Source: Lishizhenia tianjinensis
Lineage (GTDB): Bacteria; Bacteroidota; Bacteroidia; Flavobacteriales_D; Crocinitomicaceae
Assembly: GCF_900116425.1 (NCBI RefSeq)
Contig: NZ_FPAS01000001.1
Coordinates: 372,001 to 436,000 of the forward strand
DNA length: 64,000 nt
Direction: 5' to 3'
Shown: positions 26,530 through 32,786 of the stretch, one piece after another
Numbering within the stretch: position 1 is the first letter of the stretch
How the letters are laid out: each line of letters opens with the position of its first letter
Translations under genes and position numbers: made by a program
Notes under the pieces: model-generated
Told to the model about the DNA's origin: nothing
What the model saw: the letters and a program-made list of their open reading frames with translations, nothing else
Database searches by the model: none

Positions 26530-27726
26530 TTATTTTTCTCTGGTTTCTTCTATGGCTTGGAGGATAATTTCTCCGGCTTTTTTCATTTCTTCTCGGGTAA
26601 TGTTAATGGGTGGACTCAACCTAAACGAGTAGGGGTGAGAAAGGAACCAGAAAGAAATTAAACCGAGTTCCAAACATCTATTCACCACCTTTTCTACGCG
26701 CTCAAAAGATTCCATATCAAAGGCGAACATCATACCTACACGACGGATTTCTTTGATTTCAGGATCGTACTGAAGCATGTCGACCAACAATTGACCATTG
26801 GCTTCTACTTGCGTGTAATCTATTTCAGTTGTCAATACCTCTAGCGTGGCTGCTGCCGCTGCGGCAACTACGGGGTGTCCACCAAAAGTGGTAATGTGCC
26901 CTAACATGGGATCGTGGGTCAGCTCCTTCATTTTTTCTTGACTGGATACAAAAGCACCTATGGGCATTCCACCACCAAGGGCTTTACCTAAGGTCAAGAT
27001 ATCAGGAACTACATTCTCATACATTTCAAAAGCAAAATTTTGTCCTGTTCTTCCTATACCGCATTGTACTTCGTCGAAAATAAGCTGTGCACCCGTTTGG
27101 GTACATTTGTCTCTAAGTGCGCGCATGAAATCAGGTTGAGCTTTTCGCACCCCCGCATCTCCTTGAACGGTTTCCATGATTACCGCTGCTGTTTGATCGG
27201 TAATGGCTTCTAGTTCTTCAATGCTATTGAAAGTGATAAATTTTATACCTGGCAAGAGCGGTCTAAACTTCTCTTTTTTGGTTTCGTTGGCAGAAACACT
27301 TAGCGCACCATGCGTACCTCCATGATACGCTCCTTTGAAAGCGATAATTTGGGATCTTCCCGTAACGCGTTTGGCAAGTTTTAGGGCTGCTTCGTTAGCT
27401 TCTGCACCAGAATTTACGGAGTAAACACAATTGAGTTGTTCAGGTAAAATAGCTGTCAAACGTTCAGCCATTAACAAAGGAGCGTCTTGAATGAATTCAC
27501 CATAAACCATGACGTGAAGGTGCTTGTCTATTTGCTGTTTTAAGGCGTCTACAACTTTAGGGTGATTGTGCCCAATGTTGTTGACGGCAACACCGGCTAT
27601 CATATCCATGAAAGCTTTTCCTTGTTTGTCGTACATATAAATTCCCTTGGCGTAATCTATATCCAATAGATAGGGAAATGGGGTAGTTTGCCCTTGTAGC
27701 GATAGAAATTTCTCACGTCTGTCCAT
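26530..27726 (-). CDS. Class III aminotransferase (PLP)
   Basis: The 398-residue enzyme is a fold-type I aminotransferase of the ornithine/acetylornithine/4-aminobutyrate group. It has 'VNSGAEANEAALKLAKRVTGR', 'GAYHGGTHGALS', 'DEVQCGIGRTG' and the PLP-lysine block 'TLGKALGGGMPIGAF'. The exact donor is not clear from the sequence: ArgD, ornithine and GABA enzymes share these motifs. It is followed by two small membrane-protein genes in the same operon. It acts in the cytosol. Confidence 0.9.
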   Translation of the reverse strand: MDRREKFLSLQGQTTPFPYLLDIDYAKGIYMYDKQGKAFMDMIAGVAVNNIGHNHPKVVDALKQQIDKHLHVMVYGEFIQDAPLLMAERLTAILPEQLNCVYSVNSGAEANEAALKLAKRVTGRSQIIAFKGAYHGGTHGALSVSANETKKEKFRPLLPGIKFITFNSIEELEAITDQTAAVIMETVQGDAGVRKAQPDFMRALRDKCTQTGAQLIFDEVQCGIGRTGQNFAFEMYENVVPDILTLGKALGGGMPIGAFVSSQEKMKELTHDPMLGHITTFGGHPVVAAAAAATLEVLTTEIDYTQVEANGQLLVDMLQYDPEIKEIRRVGMMFAFDMESFERVEKVVNRCLELGLISFWFLSHPYSFRLSPPINITREEMKKAGEIILQAIEETREK

Positions 27727-27800: not shown

Positions 27801-27830
27801 AAAGGCAGCTAAGATTACTTAACTGCCTTT
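27801..27830 (-). terminator. Terminator of the six-gene transketolase operon
   Basis: AAAGGCAG and CTGCCTTT pair around a 14-base loop; seven T follow on the minus strand. It is the first terminator after the stop at 27865. Confidence 0.8.
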
Positions 27831-27864: not shown

Positions 27865-28320
27865 TTAGTATTTTTTTCTGGTCTTGAGTTCTGCCAACAG
27901 TTTTTTCCTGAACTCGTGCTCTAAGCAAGGAAGCTTTAAGGCTTTTTCGTAACCTATGGTTTCGCCTATTTTTAACATGAATTCGGCTTTGAGGTTTACT
28001 TCTTTCTTTTCCAAAACAATAATTTCTTGGATGAGTTTTTTGTATTCGGTTTCAGTAAGTGTATTGTCTTCTTTACATCTGTATTTCGATTTAATTGAAT
28101 GATGTAAGGCTTTAAGCTGCTTAGAATAATCATCGTAAATAGGCCAAAAAGCGATAGAGTCTTCTTTGCTTAATCTCAGTTCTTTCGAGAAATAAGTGCG
28201 CTTTAATTGCTCTATTTTTGCATGTTCAGCCTTACTTGGGCGTTTGTCTGGATGCGGACCTTGGGCAAAACTTGTTGTGTAGGCTATAATGCTTAAAAGT
28301 GTTATAAGTATGTATTTCAT
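27865..28320 (-). CDS. Small secreted protein, Spy/CpxP-like
   Basis: The 151-residue protein has a signal peptide ending TTSFAQ and a helical mature part. 'RTYFSKELRLSKEDSIAFWPIYDDYSKQLKALHHS' contains a repeated Leu/Glu helix pattern typical of periplasmic Spy/CpxP-type stress proteins. Sequence similarity is only general. It is the last gene of the sigma factor - anti-sigma operon, where such periplasmic proteins usually sit. Confidence 0.5.
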   Translation of the reverse strand: MKYILITLLSIIAYTTSFAQGPHPDKRPSKAEHAKIEQLKRTYFSKELRLSKEDSIAFWPIYDDYSKQLKALHHSIKSKYRCKEDNTLTETEYKKLIQEIIVLEKKEVNLKAEFMLKIGETIGYEKALKLPCLEHEFRKKLLAELKTRKKY

Positions 28321-28330
28321 TGTTTTCGTT

Positions 28331-28777
28331 TTAAAAATCCTCTAAGGTAAAATCATCATCATCCGATAAGTAATTGGAGATGTCATCTAAATCTAAGGCA
28401 TCTAATTGTTGGTCTATATTTTCTACAGCACTCGGCGTAGCGGAAGCTATATATCCTGCTTCAACAAAGAGTTCTTCATCGAAGTTTTGAATATTATCTT
28501 CTATGTAACCGTCTATTTCTTGGGTATTAATTTCTTTTATATCCGCAACGCTAGGGGTAGTAGTGATTTCCTTGTGTGTTAACGTGAAAAATAACAGAAG
28601 CACCGCAGCAACAGAGGCTACGCTGTAAAGTACCAGTTTTAAGCTGCTTTTGCGTTGACTTTCTCCTGGAGTAATGCTTTGGTTCAGCTCTTTTTGGAGT
28701 TGTTCAAAATAACCCGCTGGTATTCCTGGCTTTTCACTGGGTTTAAACTGATTGAATATGTTGTTTTCCTCTTTCAC
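28331..28777 (-). CDS. Putative anti-sigma factor, single-pass membrane protein
   Basis: The 148-residue protein has one transmembrane helix (about residues 46-63, 'LVLYSVASVAAVLLLFF') with a short cytoplasmic N-terminus 'NIFNQFKPSEKPGIPAGYFEQLQKEL' and an acidic extracytoplasmic tail rich in Asp/Glu. This topology and its place between the ECF sigma gene and a secreted protein gene fit an anti-sigma factor. No zinc-binding anti-sigma motif is seen. Confidence 0.65.
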   Translation of the reverse strand: MKEENNIFNQFKPSEKPGIPAGYFEQLQKELNQSITPGESQRKSSLKLVLYSVASVAAVLLLFFTLTHKEITTTPSVADIKEINTQEIDGYIEDNIQNFDEELFVEAGYIASATPSAVENIDQQLDALDLDDISNYLSDDDDFTLEDF

Positions 28778-28797
28778 TGTTCTTTAGACTATTAGAA

Positions 28798-29361
28798 TTA
28801 TAATAGGTTTAATGCGTTTTTTAAATTTTCTTCAATTTTTTTAACGGCATGGTGGTAGGAAGCTTTTAGTCCGCCTACACTGGTTCCAAGTTGCTTACTA
28901 ATTTCATTAAAACTAAGGTGTTCGAAATATTTTAATTGAAAGACTTGAGCCTGTTTTTCGGGCAGCGTATCTAGTGCTTCAAAAAGAAGATTTTCTATTT
29001 GTGTTGGGGTGAGTCCGCCCAAATCTCCGGAGCGGTTGATAAGCTCCAAGCTGGCGTCATCATATTCTTGCTTTACTTGCTTATTTCTTTTCTCCAGGAA
29101 AGTATAGGTTTCATTGCGTGCTATACTGTACATCCAAGTAGAAAGCGCACTTTTACCTTCGAATTTATCGAGGGCTTTGTAAACTTTAAGAAGGGTGTTT
29201 TGAAGTACGTCGTTGGTATCTTCGTGGTTTTTGGTTTGGCGGCGAATTTGCCAATACAATTGTTGGGCGTATTGGCTAACAAGGGCGTTAAAGGCCTTTT
29301 GTGAAAAAGCTCCTCCTTTACGATGTAATCTTAAAATTTCTTTATCGTCAAGGAGGAGCAT
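28798..29361 (-). CDS. ECF-type RNA polymerase sigma factor
   Basis: The 187-residue protein has the sigma-70 region 2 ('FNALVSQYAQQLYWQIRRQT..HEDTNDVLQNTLLKVYKALDKFEGKSALSTWMYSIARNETYTFL') and region 4 ('LDTLPEKQAQVFQLKYFEHLSFNEISKQLGTSVGGLKASYHHAVKKI'). It directs RNA polymerase to an envelope or stress regulon. It lies 9 bp behind tktC, so transcription from upstream also makes it, an unusual link to carbon metabolism. Confidence 0.92.
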   Translation of the reverse strand: MLLLDDKEILRLHRKGGAFSQKAFNALVSQYAQQLYWQIRRQTKNHEDTNDVLQNTLLKVYKALDKFEGKSALSTWMYSIARNETYTFLEKRNKQVKQEYDDASLELINRSGDLGGLTPTQIENLLFEALDTLPEKQAQVFQLKYFEHLSFNEISKQLGTSVGGLKASYHHAVKKIEENLKNALNLL

Positions 29362-29370
29362 ATATTTTTG

Positions 29371-30324
29371 TTACTTACGTTTAATTACTTTCTCGCAAGC
29401 TTGAACAACGTTAACTGTGTCTATTCCGTATTTGGTCATTAACTCATCTGGTTTACCACTTTGTCCAAACTGATCGTTAACACCAACGTACTCTTGAGGA
29501 GTAGGAGTGTTTTGTGCCAATACCTGGGCAACAGAGTCACCTAAACCACCGTTAATCATGTGTTCTTCTGCAGTAACAACACATTTTGTTTTGCTTACAG
29601 AGTCTAAGACTGCCTTTGCATCAAAAGGTTTAATGGTGTGCATATTTATTACTTCTGCACTAATTCCTTTAGCTTCTAATTGCTCCGCAGCTTCGATAGC
29701 TTTCCATACTAAGTGACCACATGCAACGATAGTTACATCAGTTCCTTCGATTAAAACATCTGCCTTACCAATTTCAAATTTAGCATCCTCAGGAGTGAAA
29801 ATTGGAACTGATGGTCTACCAAATCTTAAGTATGCTGGTCCTTCGTGATCTGCCAATGCAATAGTAGCTTGCTTTGTTTGGTTGTAGTCACAAGGAACAA
29901 CAACGGTCATGTTTGGCAACATTTTCATCATTCCTATGTCTTCCAAAATTTGGTGAGTTGCACCATCTTCTCCCAAAGTTAAACCTGCATGAGATGCTGC
30001 AATCTTAACATTCTTGTTAGAGTAAGCAATCGATTGACGGATTTGGTCGTAAACTCTACCTGTAGAGAAGTTTGCGAAAGTTCCTGTGTAAGGAATTTTA
30101 CCACCGATAGTCATACCAGCTGCCATACCCATCATGTTTGCTTCAGCAATTCCAACTTGGAAAAATCTTTCTGGGAATTCTTCTTTAAATGCATCCATTT
30201 TTAAAGAACCTGTTAAGTCAGCACATAAACCAACAACATTTGGGTTCTTTTTACCTAATTCGTGAAGTCCAGCTCCAAATCCAGAGCGCGTGTCTTTCTT
30301 GCCAAGTACTTCTATTTTTTTCAT
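29371..30324 (-). CDS. Transketolase, C-terminal (pyrimidine-binding) subunit
   Basis: The 317-residue protein is the second half of a split transketolase. It contains '[15 protein letters not shown]', '[13 protein letters not shown]', '[16 protein letters not shown]' and a C-terminal domain typical of transketolase family proteins. With the 31690 gene product it forms the ThDP enzyme of the pentose phosphate pathway. The second ATG (30324) is favoured because '[10 protein letters not shown]' is the usual start, but the ATG at 30336 touches the VWA stop. Confidence 0.9.
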
Positions 30325-30336
30325 TTTTAATTCCAT

Positions 30337-31689
30337 TTAAAGATTTATTGAAATTGTTCTATTTGATGTTATTCTAAATTCTTGATTTTTGGTGTATTCG
30401 GTTTCTTTGGCATTTATATCTCTATAAACGATTCTGTAGTTTCCAGGTTGCAAAATAAATTCTTGTTGTTTGGTATTTGCATTGATATCAATTACCCATT
30501 CCCATTCACCATTTCTGAATACGAAAAGTTGTCCTGTATTGTAATTGTAAGCCCTGAATTTTGCTTGCCCAGGAGCTGGAATGGTAAGTGTTGTTGTTTT
30601 ACTTTGAGAAATTGTCGCATCTAGAGTAATACGCGGCAAAGTGTAAATTTCCACCTTGTAATCACCGACTAAATATTTCTGCTTTTGTTCTAATTCTTGA
30701 TGATTCAAAGTAACTTCTTTACCGTCTTGTACCACCCTGTAAGGGAAATAATAGTTGGTTGTTTTGTTACTAATTTTAATATCTAAATAGCCTTGCGGAC
30801 AATCTACCTCTATGATGTTGTGCTGGTATTTTTTGATGTTAATGTTCTTCTTCTCAACACGGGGCAGGGTATTAACTACAAGGTCGTATTTTTTGTTCGG
30901 GTCTATAACTATAGTATCCGGAAGGTTGTTCTCATTTAAAGTGTGCATGTAACTATACACCAATTTTTTAGTACCTGCTTCATAAAAGAAGAGGGTAGAG
31001 TTGGTCTCTAACGGGCGACCATCCAAGCGGTTTAAATTTACTTGCACTGTAGTATTCACCAGGGCTTTATCTACAACAGTTTTGAGTAATACTTCAAAAG
31101 ATTGTTTGTCATCGGCATTGGCAAATTGACCAACACAATCGAACTTTGAAAGGTAAGCAGTGTCTAAGCCTAGACCAATAATGAAAGGACTAATTTTAAT
31201 TCCTTTCGCCCTGAGTTTATCTGCGATAACACATGGTTCATCATCACATTCTTCTACACCATCTGTTATAAGAATAATAATGTTTCGACTTTTATTGTCT
31301 GGAAAATCTCCGGCTGCTGCCTCTAGAGATCTTGCGATAGGTGTGGTACCTTTCGCTTCTAATGTCTTGATTTTTCCTTTTATTAAGGATTCATTTCCTG
31401 AGTAAAAAGGCACCTCTAATTTAGTGTCGGCGCAATCTTGGTAGGTTGCTGTAATTGGTGTTTGATGACCGTAAACGCGGAGTGCTAATTCTAGGTTTTC
31501 TACACCGGTTAAGCTATCAACAGTTTTAGAGAGTATGTCTTTGGCCAAATCAATTTTGGCTTCATAACCCCATTTACCATTCATAGAGTTGGACGCGTCC
31601 AAAATGAAAAGGATGCGCGTCAAATCTTGTTGGGCGAATGTAAAAACACTCACCCAACAAAATAATAATATGCTTAAAAAGCGTTTCAA
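30337..31689 (-). CDS. Secreted VWA-domain protein
   Basis: The 450-residue protein has a signal peptide (MKRFLSILLFCWVSVFTFAQ) and a von Willebrand A domain with MIDAS motif DASNS (residues 31-35), 'ITDGVEECDDEP' and 'AKGTTPIARSLEAAAGDFP'. The C-terminal half is built of beta-rich segments that resemble carboxypeptidase-regulatory-like repeats. The start is TTG: it directly follows the TAA of the tktN gene, and its stop touches the start of tktC. It has no obvious link to transketolase chemistry. Confidence 0.85.
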   Translation of the reverse strand: MKRFLSILLFCWVSVFTFAQQDLTRILFILDASNSMNGKWGYEAKIDLAKDILSKTVDSLTGVENLELALRVYGHQTPITATYQDCADTKLEVPFYSGNESLIKGKIKTLEAKGTTPIARSLEAAAGDFPDNKSRNIIILITDGVEECDDEPCVIADKLRAKGIKISPFIIGLGLDTAYLSKFDCVGQFANADDKQSFEVLLKTVVDKALVNTTVQVNLNRLDGRPLETNSTLFFYEAGTKKLVYSYMHTLNENNLPDTIVIDPNKKYDLVVNTLPRVEKKNINIKKYQHNIIEVDCPQGYLDIKISNKTTNYYFPYRVVQDGKEVTLNHQELEQKQKYLVGDYKVEIYTLPRITLDATISQSKTTTLTIPAPGQAKFRAYNYNTGQLFVFRNGEWEWVIDINANTKQQEFILQPGNYRIVYRDINAKETEYTKNQEFRITSNRTISINL

Positions 31690-32532
31690 TTAATAGTCTC
31701 CTAAAGTTTCTTTTAACTGAGATAAAGCTGAAGCTAATTGCTCATCATTCGGAGCAGAACCGTGCCATTTGTGTGTTCCCATCATGTAGTCAACACCTTG
31801 ACCCATTTCTGTTTTCATGATGATAACGATAGGCTTACCTTGTCCTGTCATTGATTTAGCTTTATCCAAAGTTGCGATGATATCTGCCATGTTATGACCA
31901 TCCATCTCTAATACTTCCCAACCAAAAGCTTGCCATTTCATGCTTAAATTTCCTAAAGAAAGTACATCGTCACAATCTCCATCAATTTGTCTACCGTTGT
32001 AATCTATAGTAGCAATGATGTTATCTACTTTGTTGGCTGCAGCGTACATTGCCGCTTCCCAAATTTGTCCTTCTTGTAATTCACCGTCACCGTGTAAGGT
32101 GTAAACTAAAGCTTTATCGCCGTTTAGTTTTTTTGTTTCTGCTGTTCCTAAAGCGCAAGATAAACCTTGACCTAAAGATCCAGAAGCCATACGAATTCCC
32201 GGTAAATTTTTATCTGTACTTGGGTGACCTTGTAAAGGAGATCCCAATTTTCTAAATCCAGCTAAATCCGCCACATTAAAGTATCCGCTTCTCGCTAAAA
32301 CACTGTACCATACTGGAGAAATGTGTCCGTTAGAAAGGAAGAAAATATCTTCGTTTAAACCGTCCATTGTAAAGTTCTCTGGATTGTGAGTCATGGTATG
32401 TTGATACAAAACTGTTAAGAAGTCAGCACAACCTAAAGAACCTCCAGGGTGTCCAGAACTAACAGCTGCTACCATTCTTACGATATCTCTTCTTACTTGC
32501 GAAGCGAATTCTTCTAATTTCAATGTGTCCAT
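31690..32532 (-). CDS. Transketolase, N-terminal (ThDP pyrophosphate-binding) subunit
   Basis: The 280-residue protein is the first half of transketolase with the ThDP motif 'GDGELQEGQIWEAAMYAAANKVDNIIATID' (GDG to N). It has 'SSGHPGGSLGCAD', 'ASGSLGQGLS' and 'MGTHKWHGSAPNDEQL'. Split transketolases are common in Flavobacteriales, but the halves are normally adjacent; here a VWA gene intervenes. It is the first gene of the operon. Confidence 0.92.
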   Translation of the reverse strand: MDTLKLEEFASQVRRDIVRMVAAVSSGHPGGSLGCADFLTVLYQHTMTHNPENFTMDGLNEDIFFLSNGHISPVWYSVLARSGYFNVADLAGFRKLGSPLQGHPSTDKNLPGIRMASGSLGQGLSCALGTAETKKLNGDKALVYTLHGDGELQEGQIWEAAMYAAANKVDNIIATIDYNGRQIDGDCDDVLSLGNLSMKWQAFGWEVLEMDGHNMADIIATLDKAKSMTGQGKPIVIIMKTEMGQGVDYMMGTHKWHGSAPNDEQLASALSQLKETLGDY

Positions 32533-32786
32533 ATTTACGGATGCTTTTACTCTATTATTTGGTGCTGCAAATCTAAGTTTTTCTCTTTTAAGATGACGAA
32601 TAAATTCATTTAAAATTCAAAGTTCAAAATTCAAAACACATCTCCTATTTTGAATTTTAATTTTTACATTTTGATTTATCTGGCGGTTATTAACATATAA
32701 ATAAGGAAAGAAATACTAAGGGTTTTAGGGCCTAAAGTAGTTTGTTTAACATCTATCTATTAAATTAGCCACAAAAATTAAAGAGT
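32533..32786. other. Divergent intergenic region between tktN and the MlaD-type gene
   Basis: About 250 bp with an inverted repeat 'ttaaaattcaaa...ttttgaattttaa' (about 32608-32660) whose words resemble those at 15275-15300. It should hold the promoters of both operons. I see nothing else. Confidence 0.4.

Follow-up and report, generated by a model that had tools for sequence, protein, structure and literature searches.

The stretch of DNA analysed here (the window) comprises 64,000 nucleotides of Lishizhenia tianjinensis (family Crocinitomicaceae; class Bacteroidia, phylum Bacteroidota in GTDB), contig NZ_FPAS01000001.1, and the system in question is a run of six genes on its minus strand (32532-27865), arranged head to tail according to the open reading frame table and the sequence. 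It contains the two halves of a split transketolase, tktN and tktC, the gene of a VWA protein placed between them and, behind tktC, the genes of an extracytoplasmic function (ECF) sigma factor, a protein with a PxGYF motif and an all-helical protein (Table 1). The tktN stop abuts the TTG start of the VWA gene at 31689, the VWA gene ends at 30337 and abuts the first ATG of tktC at 30336, and the sigma gene starts (29361) 9 bp behind tktC. All three junctions had been pointed out in a first-pass annotation made from the letters alone and were confirmed. A second in-frame ATG lies four codons downstream of the first in tktC, and either of them may be the start. By the distribution of its domains over two genes, this pair is a split transketolase of predicted activity; a bacterial full-length transketolase model matches only tktN and tktC in the own genome (E-values up to 1e-20), with no full-length match there. 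The sigma protein has sigma-70 regions 2 and 4 only, as is characteristic of ECF sigma factors.

Table 1. Features of the transketolase-VWA unit and of its downstream border, in window positions
Feature	Position	Strand	Evidence or remark
Predicted unit promoter	32568..32575	-	TAGATTTG, fits the -7 box TAnnTTTG; 35 bases before tktN
tktN, N-terminal, thiamine diphosphate (ThDP)-binding half of split transketolase	31690..32532	-	Pfam Transketolase_N 2.5e-49
VWA protein: hydrophobic N terminus, VWA domain with metal ion-dependent adhesion site (MIDAS), beta-rich C-terminal region, TTG start	30337..31689	-	Pfam VWA 6.3e-9
tktC, C-terminal half of split transketolase	29371..30336	-	Pfam Transket_pyr 1.8e-43, Transketolase_C 6.9e-33
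ECF sigma factor	28798..29361	-	Sigma70_r2 1.6e-14, r4_2 7e-13; TIGR02937 1.1e-29, over cut-off
PxGYF protein, 148 amino acids, N-terminal PAGYFEQL motif and one hydrophobic stretch, perhaps anti-sigma factor	28331..28777	-	sequence reading
All-helical protein, 151 amino acids, export-like N terminus, perhaps sensor or periplasmic chaperone	27865..28320	-	model mean predicted local distance difference test (pLDDT) 88
Terminator-like hairpin	27801..27830	-	13 pairs, then TTTGTGTT (T-rich tail); before aminotransferase gene
Class-III aminotransferase gene	26530-27726		directly behind unit

Of 99 related genomes, 89 contain a relative of the VWA protein. A profile built from 26 proteins matched 200 of 296 genomes drawn from the class, among them members of the window's own family and order. 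In a second set of 296 genomes, drawn from the phylum and again including class members, there were eight matches, six within the class and two outside it; the latter (E about 1e-37) were to part of longer frames, and no full-length relative outside the class was found among the genomes of both samples.

The gene order in these genomes was read by profile hidden Markov models for each gene. The counts refer to loci and not to genomes (G007 and G069 gave two pieces each), and the own genome of the window was excluded. Loci with fewer than 1200 bases before or 1300 bases after the VWA match, as well as two weak paralogues (L120, L121), were left out. The loci from elsewhere in the class, sixty from 56 genomes with one to three genomes per family, were chosen blind to context and include second VWA copies in four genomes, none of them in a triad. 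At loci with sufficient flanks, tktN was found upstream of VWA in 54/54 cases in the family, 29/29 in the rest of the order and 47/59 elsewhere in the class, and tktC downstream of VWA in 53/54, 26/28 and 43/57, respectively. The intact tktN-VWA-tktC triad is kept at 50/51, 23/25 and 40/56 testable loci, and it is present in 36 of the 47 sampled class families outside the order. The median gap between the matched stretches of tktN and VWA is short (14 bases in the family, 38.5 in the rest of the order and 63 elsewhere in the class), as is that between VWA and tktC (10.5, 10 and 21 bases, respectively); the maxima are 1300 and 673.

The outer border is kept far less. Outside the family, tktN precedes VWA at 71 of 86 loci (44 families), and the commonest gene on the far side of tktN is common to just 21 of 65 loci. 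An inner order preserved over dozens of families, while the outer border turns over, is a sign of selection or of an operon that is hard to leave. The first-pass annotation had allowed that the order might be chance and had proposed to look at other Flavobacteriales; with this comparison made, chance is excluded for the order by the triad counts in the family, the order and the class. An artefact of sequencing or annotation was ruled out as well, the triad being also read at L093, L098 and L071. Mean pairwise identity in 106 triads was 0.47 for VWA, 0.68 for tktN and 0.74 for tktC, and distances correlate between VWA and tktN at 0.72 and between VWA and tktC at 0.62 (0 of 1000 permutations as high), which fits shared descent. 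From these sequence comparisons, vertical descent with a selected order appears highly probable. One member of the cluster that most often adjoins tktN outside the family (L038:13585-14679) is a YchF GTPase by Pfam.

The next question is where transcription of the unit would start. In Flavobacterium psychrophilum, the primary sigma factor has TAnnTTTG as its -7 box (PMC9723704). This box was searched for in 220 bases upstream of the genes, and expected counts were obtained from dinucleotide-preserving shuffles; the loci are related to each other, and the counts are not independent. The box stands before tktN at 101/129 loci against 21.6 expected, compared with 6/132 (13.1 expected) before VWA behind tktN, 13/127 (12.7) before tktC behind VWA and 2/51 (6.8) before the putative sensor gene. 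It was also found before tktN in 5/8 genomes without VWA (1.0 expected) and at 0/9 loci before tktC directly behind tktN (0.6 expected), and tktC standing elsewhere or behind an insertion has it at 6/9 (1.8 expected). A box placed chiefly before tktN predicts one transcript starting there, and its distribution is good evidence for such a start. The suggestion of the first-pass annotation that these genes share a transcript is thus supported as a prediction, by abutting genes, by the box lying mainly before tktN and by an order kept over many families, and co-transcription of the unit is very probable. A sigma-70 consensus scan of the window gave 25 promoter-like sites against 17.0 expected (standard deviation 4.6), and this count is uninformative.

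The window VWA protein carries the MIDAS signature DxSxS...T...D, and across 137 near-full-length VWA proteins the MIDAS residues and four Cys are each missing from at most one. Its N terminus is of a hydrophobic kind found in 112 of 114 scorable VWA proteins by our own threshold, and a lipobox-like motif occurs in 4. A spurious frame was ruled out by identities of 39 to 60% in 25 relatives. The TTG directly on the tktN stop is the first possible VWA start at 13 loci, all within the family. In the AlphaFold2 model (mean pLDDT 85, predicted template modelling score 0.57), the VWA domain is followed by beta strands. A fold search with this model returned only pilus adhesins (SpaC, 4.9e-13) and generic VWA proteins, at low TM-scores (about 0.35), and sequence-profile matches, seven in number, included mussel PTMP1 (4.2e-10) and BatB (2.4e-6). 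The VWA fold with MIDAS is common to the window protein and to such exported proteins as pilus adhesins, inter-alpha-inhibitor and BatB; the window protein differs from them in its own beta-rich C-terminal region and in these low scores. The Bat (BatA/BatB) aerotolerance proteins combine VWA with membrane-spanning helices and are encoded in the bat operon. Membership in this group was rejected: the model of the window protein shows nothing but beta structure beyond its VWA domain and N-terminal helix, and its gene has tkt neighbours rather than a bat operon around it. The protein is probably exported, and a role as an envelope scaffold is a tentative suggestion, with chances a little below even.

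A sigma gene follows tktC in 20/50 triads of the family, 13/24 of the rest of the order and 16/38 elsewhere (49/112 in total), and the VWA-tktC-sigma run occurs in 24 families. Since 10 to 33 sigma-70-like matches were counted per genome (12 genomes), chance adjacency may be put at about one per cent by our own estimate. The gene behind sigma shows a loose P-x-G-[YF]-F pattern near the N terminus in 47 of 50 relatives, a count made with no control set, and its best 19-residue hydropathy means are 1.2 to 3.1. A helical exported protein follows it at 45 of 50 loci. The window PxGYF protein gave no Pfam or NCBIfam match and nothing convincing in the family libraries (Pfam E up to 0.01), and the window helical protein had no Pfam match at E up to 0.01 and none in NCBIfam. 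LTXXQ matches were obtained for 3 of 5 relatives of the latter (E 0.0004 to 0.04), all below the Pfam cut-off, and its fold matches include ZraP chains, not significantly. In an alignment of 25 sensor sequences, Q, F and P are invariant and L, L, E, W, E and F nearly so; none of the columns kept to this degree is His, Cys or Met, and Glu ligands are possible. The names anti-sigma factor and sensor are provisional, since they come from a loose PxGYF pattern, non-significant fold matches and LTXXQ matches below the cut-off. Thus, of the secreted VWA protein and sigma/anti-sigma pair named in the first-pass annotation, an export-like N terminus and an ECF sigma factor were borne out, and the anti-sigma role stays a suggestion. 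Sigma, anti-sigma and sensor roles for the three cassette genes are nevertheless rather likely.

The layout of sigma factor, anti-sigma factor and periplasmic sensor is that of CnrYXH-type systems, in which the sensor has His/Met metal ligands. The window cassette resembles them in grouping an ECF sigma factor with two proteins, one bearing a hydrophobic stretch and the other all-helical, exported and sensor-like, and it differs in its place in a tkt operon, in a fold match to CnrX that is not significant, and in the lack of conserved His/Met in the 25-sequence sensor alignment. With Spy, CpxP and ZraP (LTXXQ) the helical protein shares its fold class and export-like N terminus, but its relatives match LTXXQ only below the cut-off, and no Pfam match above the cut-off places it there. 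The transketolase itself follows the known two-gene form, with Transketolase_N on one gene and Transket_pyr and Transketolase_C on another; here, unlike in that form, the halves are parted by the gene of an unrelated, apparently exported protein. No description of this arrangement was found among titles and opening lines of abstracts of the open-licence papers listed, which is weak evidence of novelty.

Exceptions to the triad tell how far its parts depend on each other. The VWA gene is without an adjoining tktC in G013, G081, G119, G125, G142 and G337, a genome search of G119 finding no tktC ortholog, and in G087 tktC lies 1.7 kb from VWA. There is no tktN before VWA in G137, G348 and G156, VWA is alone, without tkt neighbours, in G118 and G123, and no split transketolase lies by VWA in G155 and G190 (family f60) and in G220 (f68). 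A single full-length transketolase gene was found elsewhere in the genome in 5/5 f60 and f68 genomes tested. In f60, VWA, sigma, PxGYF and sensor genes lie together at 3/3 flanked loci (G155, G190, G313), and a fourth locus (G248) is at a contig end.

Ten of the 99 relatives have no VWA match. Seven of these have both transketolase halves, adjacent in 7/7, and in the remaining three no tktN or tktC turned up, as would be expected from a gap in the assembly or if the whole unit had been lost. For 20 listed VWA-less genomes of 96 in the class sample (G066 is common to this set and to the relatives), both halves were found in 13, adjacent in 8 and apart in 5; tktN was alone in one, and neither ortholog was found in six. 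Adjacent halves with VWA elsewhere, the pattern that the first-pass annotation had set against its own proposal, are not the rule: genomes in which the halves were found side by side, in the family and order as well as among the listed class genomes, had no VWA match. Nine VWA-less loci with adjacent halves, of 14 such genomes found, were fetched, and sigma follows tktC in four of them (L126, L128, L279, L288), at L279 about 470 bases beyond tktC. Nine loci in which tktC lies apart or follows an insertion were also fetched, and in three of them (L276, L278, L280) sigma comes directly after it. From these patterns of loss and linkage, sigma, VWA and tktC hold together pairwise, and none is needed for the others.

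Summarizing these data, the explanation which we regard as the best, at a probability of roughly 0.45 for the whole of it, is an old, vertically inherited and selected operon that has persisted through much of the class to which Flavobacteriales belong. A single promoter of sigma-A type, upstream of tktN, would give a transcript for both transketolase halves and an exported, MIDAS-bearing VWA protein, and at under half of the loci this transcript would run on into the cassette of ECF sigma factor, membrane anti-sigma factor and helical sensor. Outside the cytoplasm, the VWA protein may serve the envelope in binding or as a scaffold, in dependence on divalent cations. The cassette would act like CnrYXH or a Spy/CpxP-gated system, in which the sensor keeps the anti-sigma factor on sigma until the envelope is disturbed. 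The tie to transketolase could be one of dosage, keeping envelope-care genes in step with a growth-linked housekeeping enzyme, and no contact between the VWA or envelope proteins and transketolase would be needed. As the reason for the linkage, dosage coupling is a tentative choice, at odds of about one in three.

Several observations weigh against this explanation. VWA was found without tkt neighbours (f60, f68, G118, G123) and tkt without VWA, so neither needs the other. Sigma is missing at the site in 63/112 triads, and the sole f68 locus (G220) has no sigma in 1.9 kb behind VWA. The best fold match of the helical protein, CnrX, has an E-value of 0.68, which is not significant. As to transcription, the box precedes VWA not lying behind tktN at just 4/12 loci (1.9 expected) and relocated tktN at 1/4 (0.7 expected), and before sigma it exceeds expectation (14/56 against 4.4), so extra promoters are likely in some lineages. 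The hairpin at 27830-27801 is the first minus-strand terminator-like site listed downstream of tktN in the window scan; it lends a shared transcript weak support because the window has 7 such sites against 5.1 expected (standard deviation 2.4), without excess.

A frozen accident would account for part of the same data. According to this explanation, a VWA gene of value in its own right entered the space between tktN and tktC a single time, in an ancestor, with no functional tie to transketolase, and the order persists because the halves must be co-expressed and moving VWA out needs two events. That VWA and split transketolase each exist without the other, that the halves are adjacent in all seven VWA-less family and order genomes having both, and that the sigma cassette accompanies only 49 of 112 triads all agree with it. 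The halves can, however, separate, as they do in 5 of the 13 listed VWA-less class genomes with both, and tktC standing apart often has a box of its own (6/9), yet 36 of the 47 class families sampled outside the order retain the triad. In our opinion, dosage coupling is to be favoured, and a frozen accident is nearly as likely.

Two other explanations give the unit a more active part. In the first, active feedback, the ECF sigma factor would be released under envelope stress, with the VWA protein adjusting its activity, and would alter expression of the tkt operon, directing carbon (pentose, erythrose- and sedoheptulose-phosphates) towards aromatic building blocks or those of the envelope. The VWA-tktC-sigma run in 24 families and a VWA-sigma linkage that outlives tkt in f60 are in its favour, while more than half of the triads (63/112) do without sigma, and the conserved box upstream of tktN is of the sigma-A kind (PMC9723704), in a search which did not cover ECF-type boxes. 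Feedback on carbon flow is possible, but this box points to the primary sigma factor; the explanation as a whole is improbable. It is far less probable still that the VWA protein aids transketolase itself, in assembly or metal loading, and that its N-terminal segment is no true signal. Strict placement between the halves would suit such a helper, as would the fact that broken triads keep VWA with tktN (the six genomes without adjoining tktC) or with tktC (G137, G348) more often than alone (G118, G123). The hydrophobic N terminus in 112/114 scorable proteins, the four conserved Cys and the retention of VWA where split transketolase is gone argue against it.

Some features of the neighbourhood may be added. 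Relatives of the aminotransferase gene are often found downstream of tktC or of the sensor gene, with a TAnnTTTG box of their own at 33/60 loci, so that the gene probably belongs to a neighbouring unit. Other genes stand inside some loci: an opposite-strand gene for 518 amino acids with a weak beta-helix match below the cut-off between VWA and tktC (L049:6233-7789, G087), a ParE-like toxin and antitoxin pair on the opposite strand at the same site (L193:5045-5567, G152), and a YhcG/DUF1016 nuclease-like gene between tktN and VWA (L214:7433-8473, G162). In G156 (L270, family f61), tandem VWA genes lie directly before tktC, with no tktN within 5.4 kb upstream, and two other f61 genomes have two VWA matches each. 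The second VWA copy of f51 (L260 in G235, L265 in G136) is followed by a gene for 1046 amino acids of one cluster, SecDF by Pfam at L260. At L258 (G155), L262 (G190) and L264 (G220), VWA is directly behind a gene for 338-349 amino acids of one cluster, tsaD by Pfam at L258, and a large gene (at least 1269 amino acids, cut by the locus end) lies beside VWA in the opposite direction.

The unit joins core metabolism, an apparently exported protein and a sigma cassette, and it suggests functions that can be tested for one ECF sigma factor and for a conserved protein without a name. The first-pass annotation had thought of a link between envelope sensing and carbon flow, and such a tie may exist. 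In its widest form it would be a circuit preserved in much of the class, in which transketolase and an exported, divalent-cation-binding VWA protein are made in a fixed ratio, with the latter reporting or maintaining the state of the envelope and the co-transcribed sigma cassette responding; this is unlikely. If true, the circuit would set envelope trouble and carbon flow together and link the pentose phosphate pathway to the envelope. The unit offers a genetic test of the coupling between central carbon metabolism and the envelope in this phylum.

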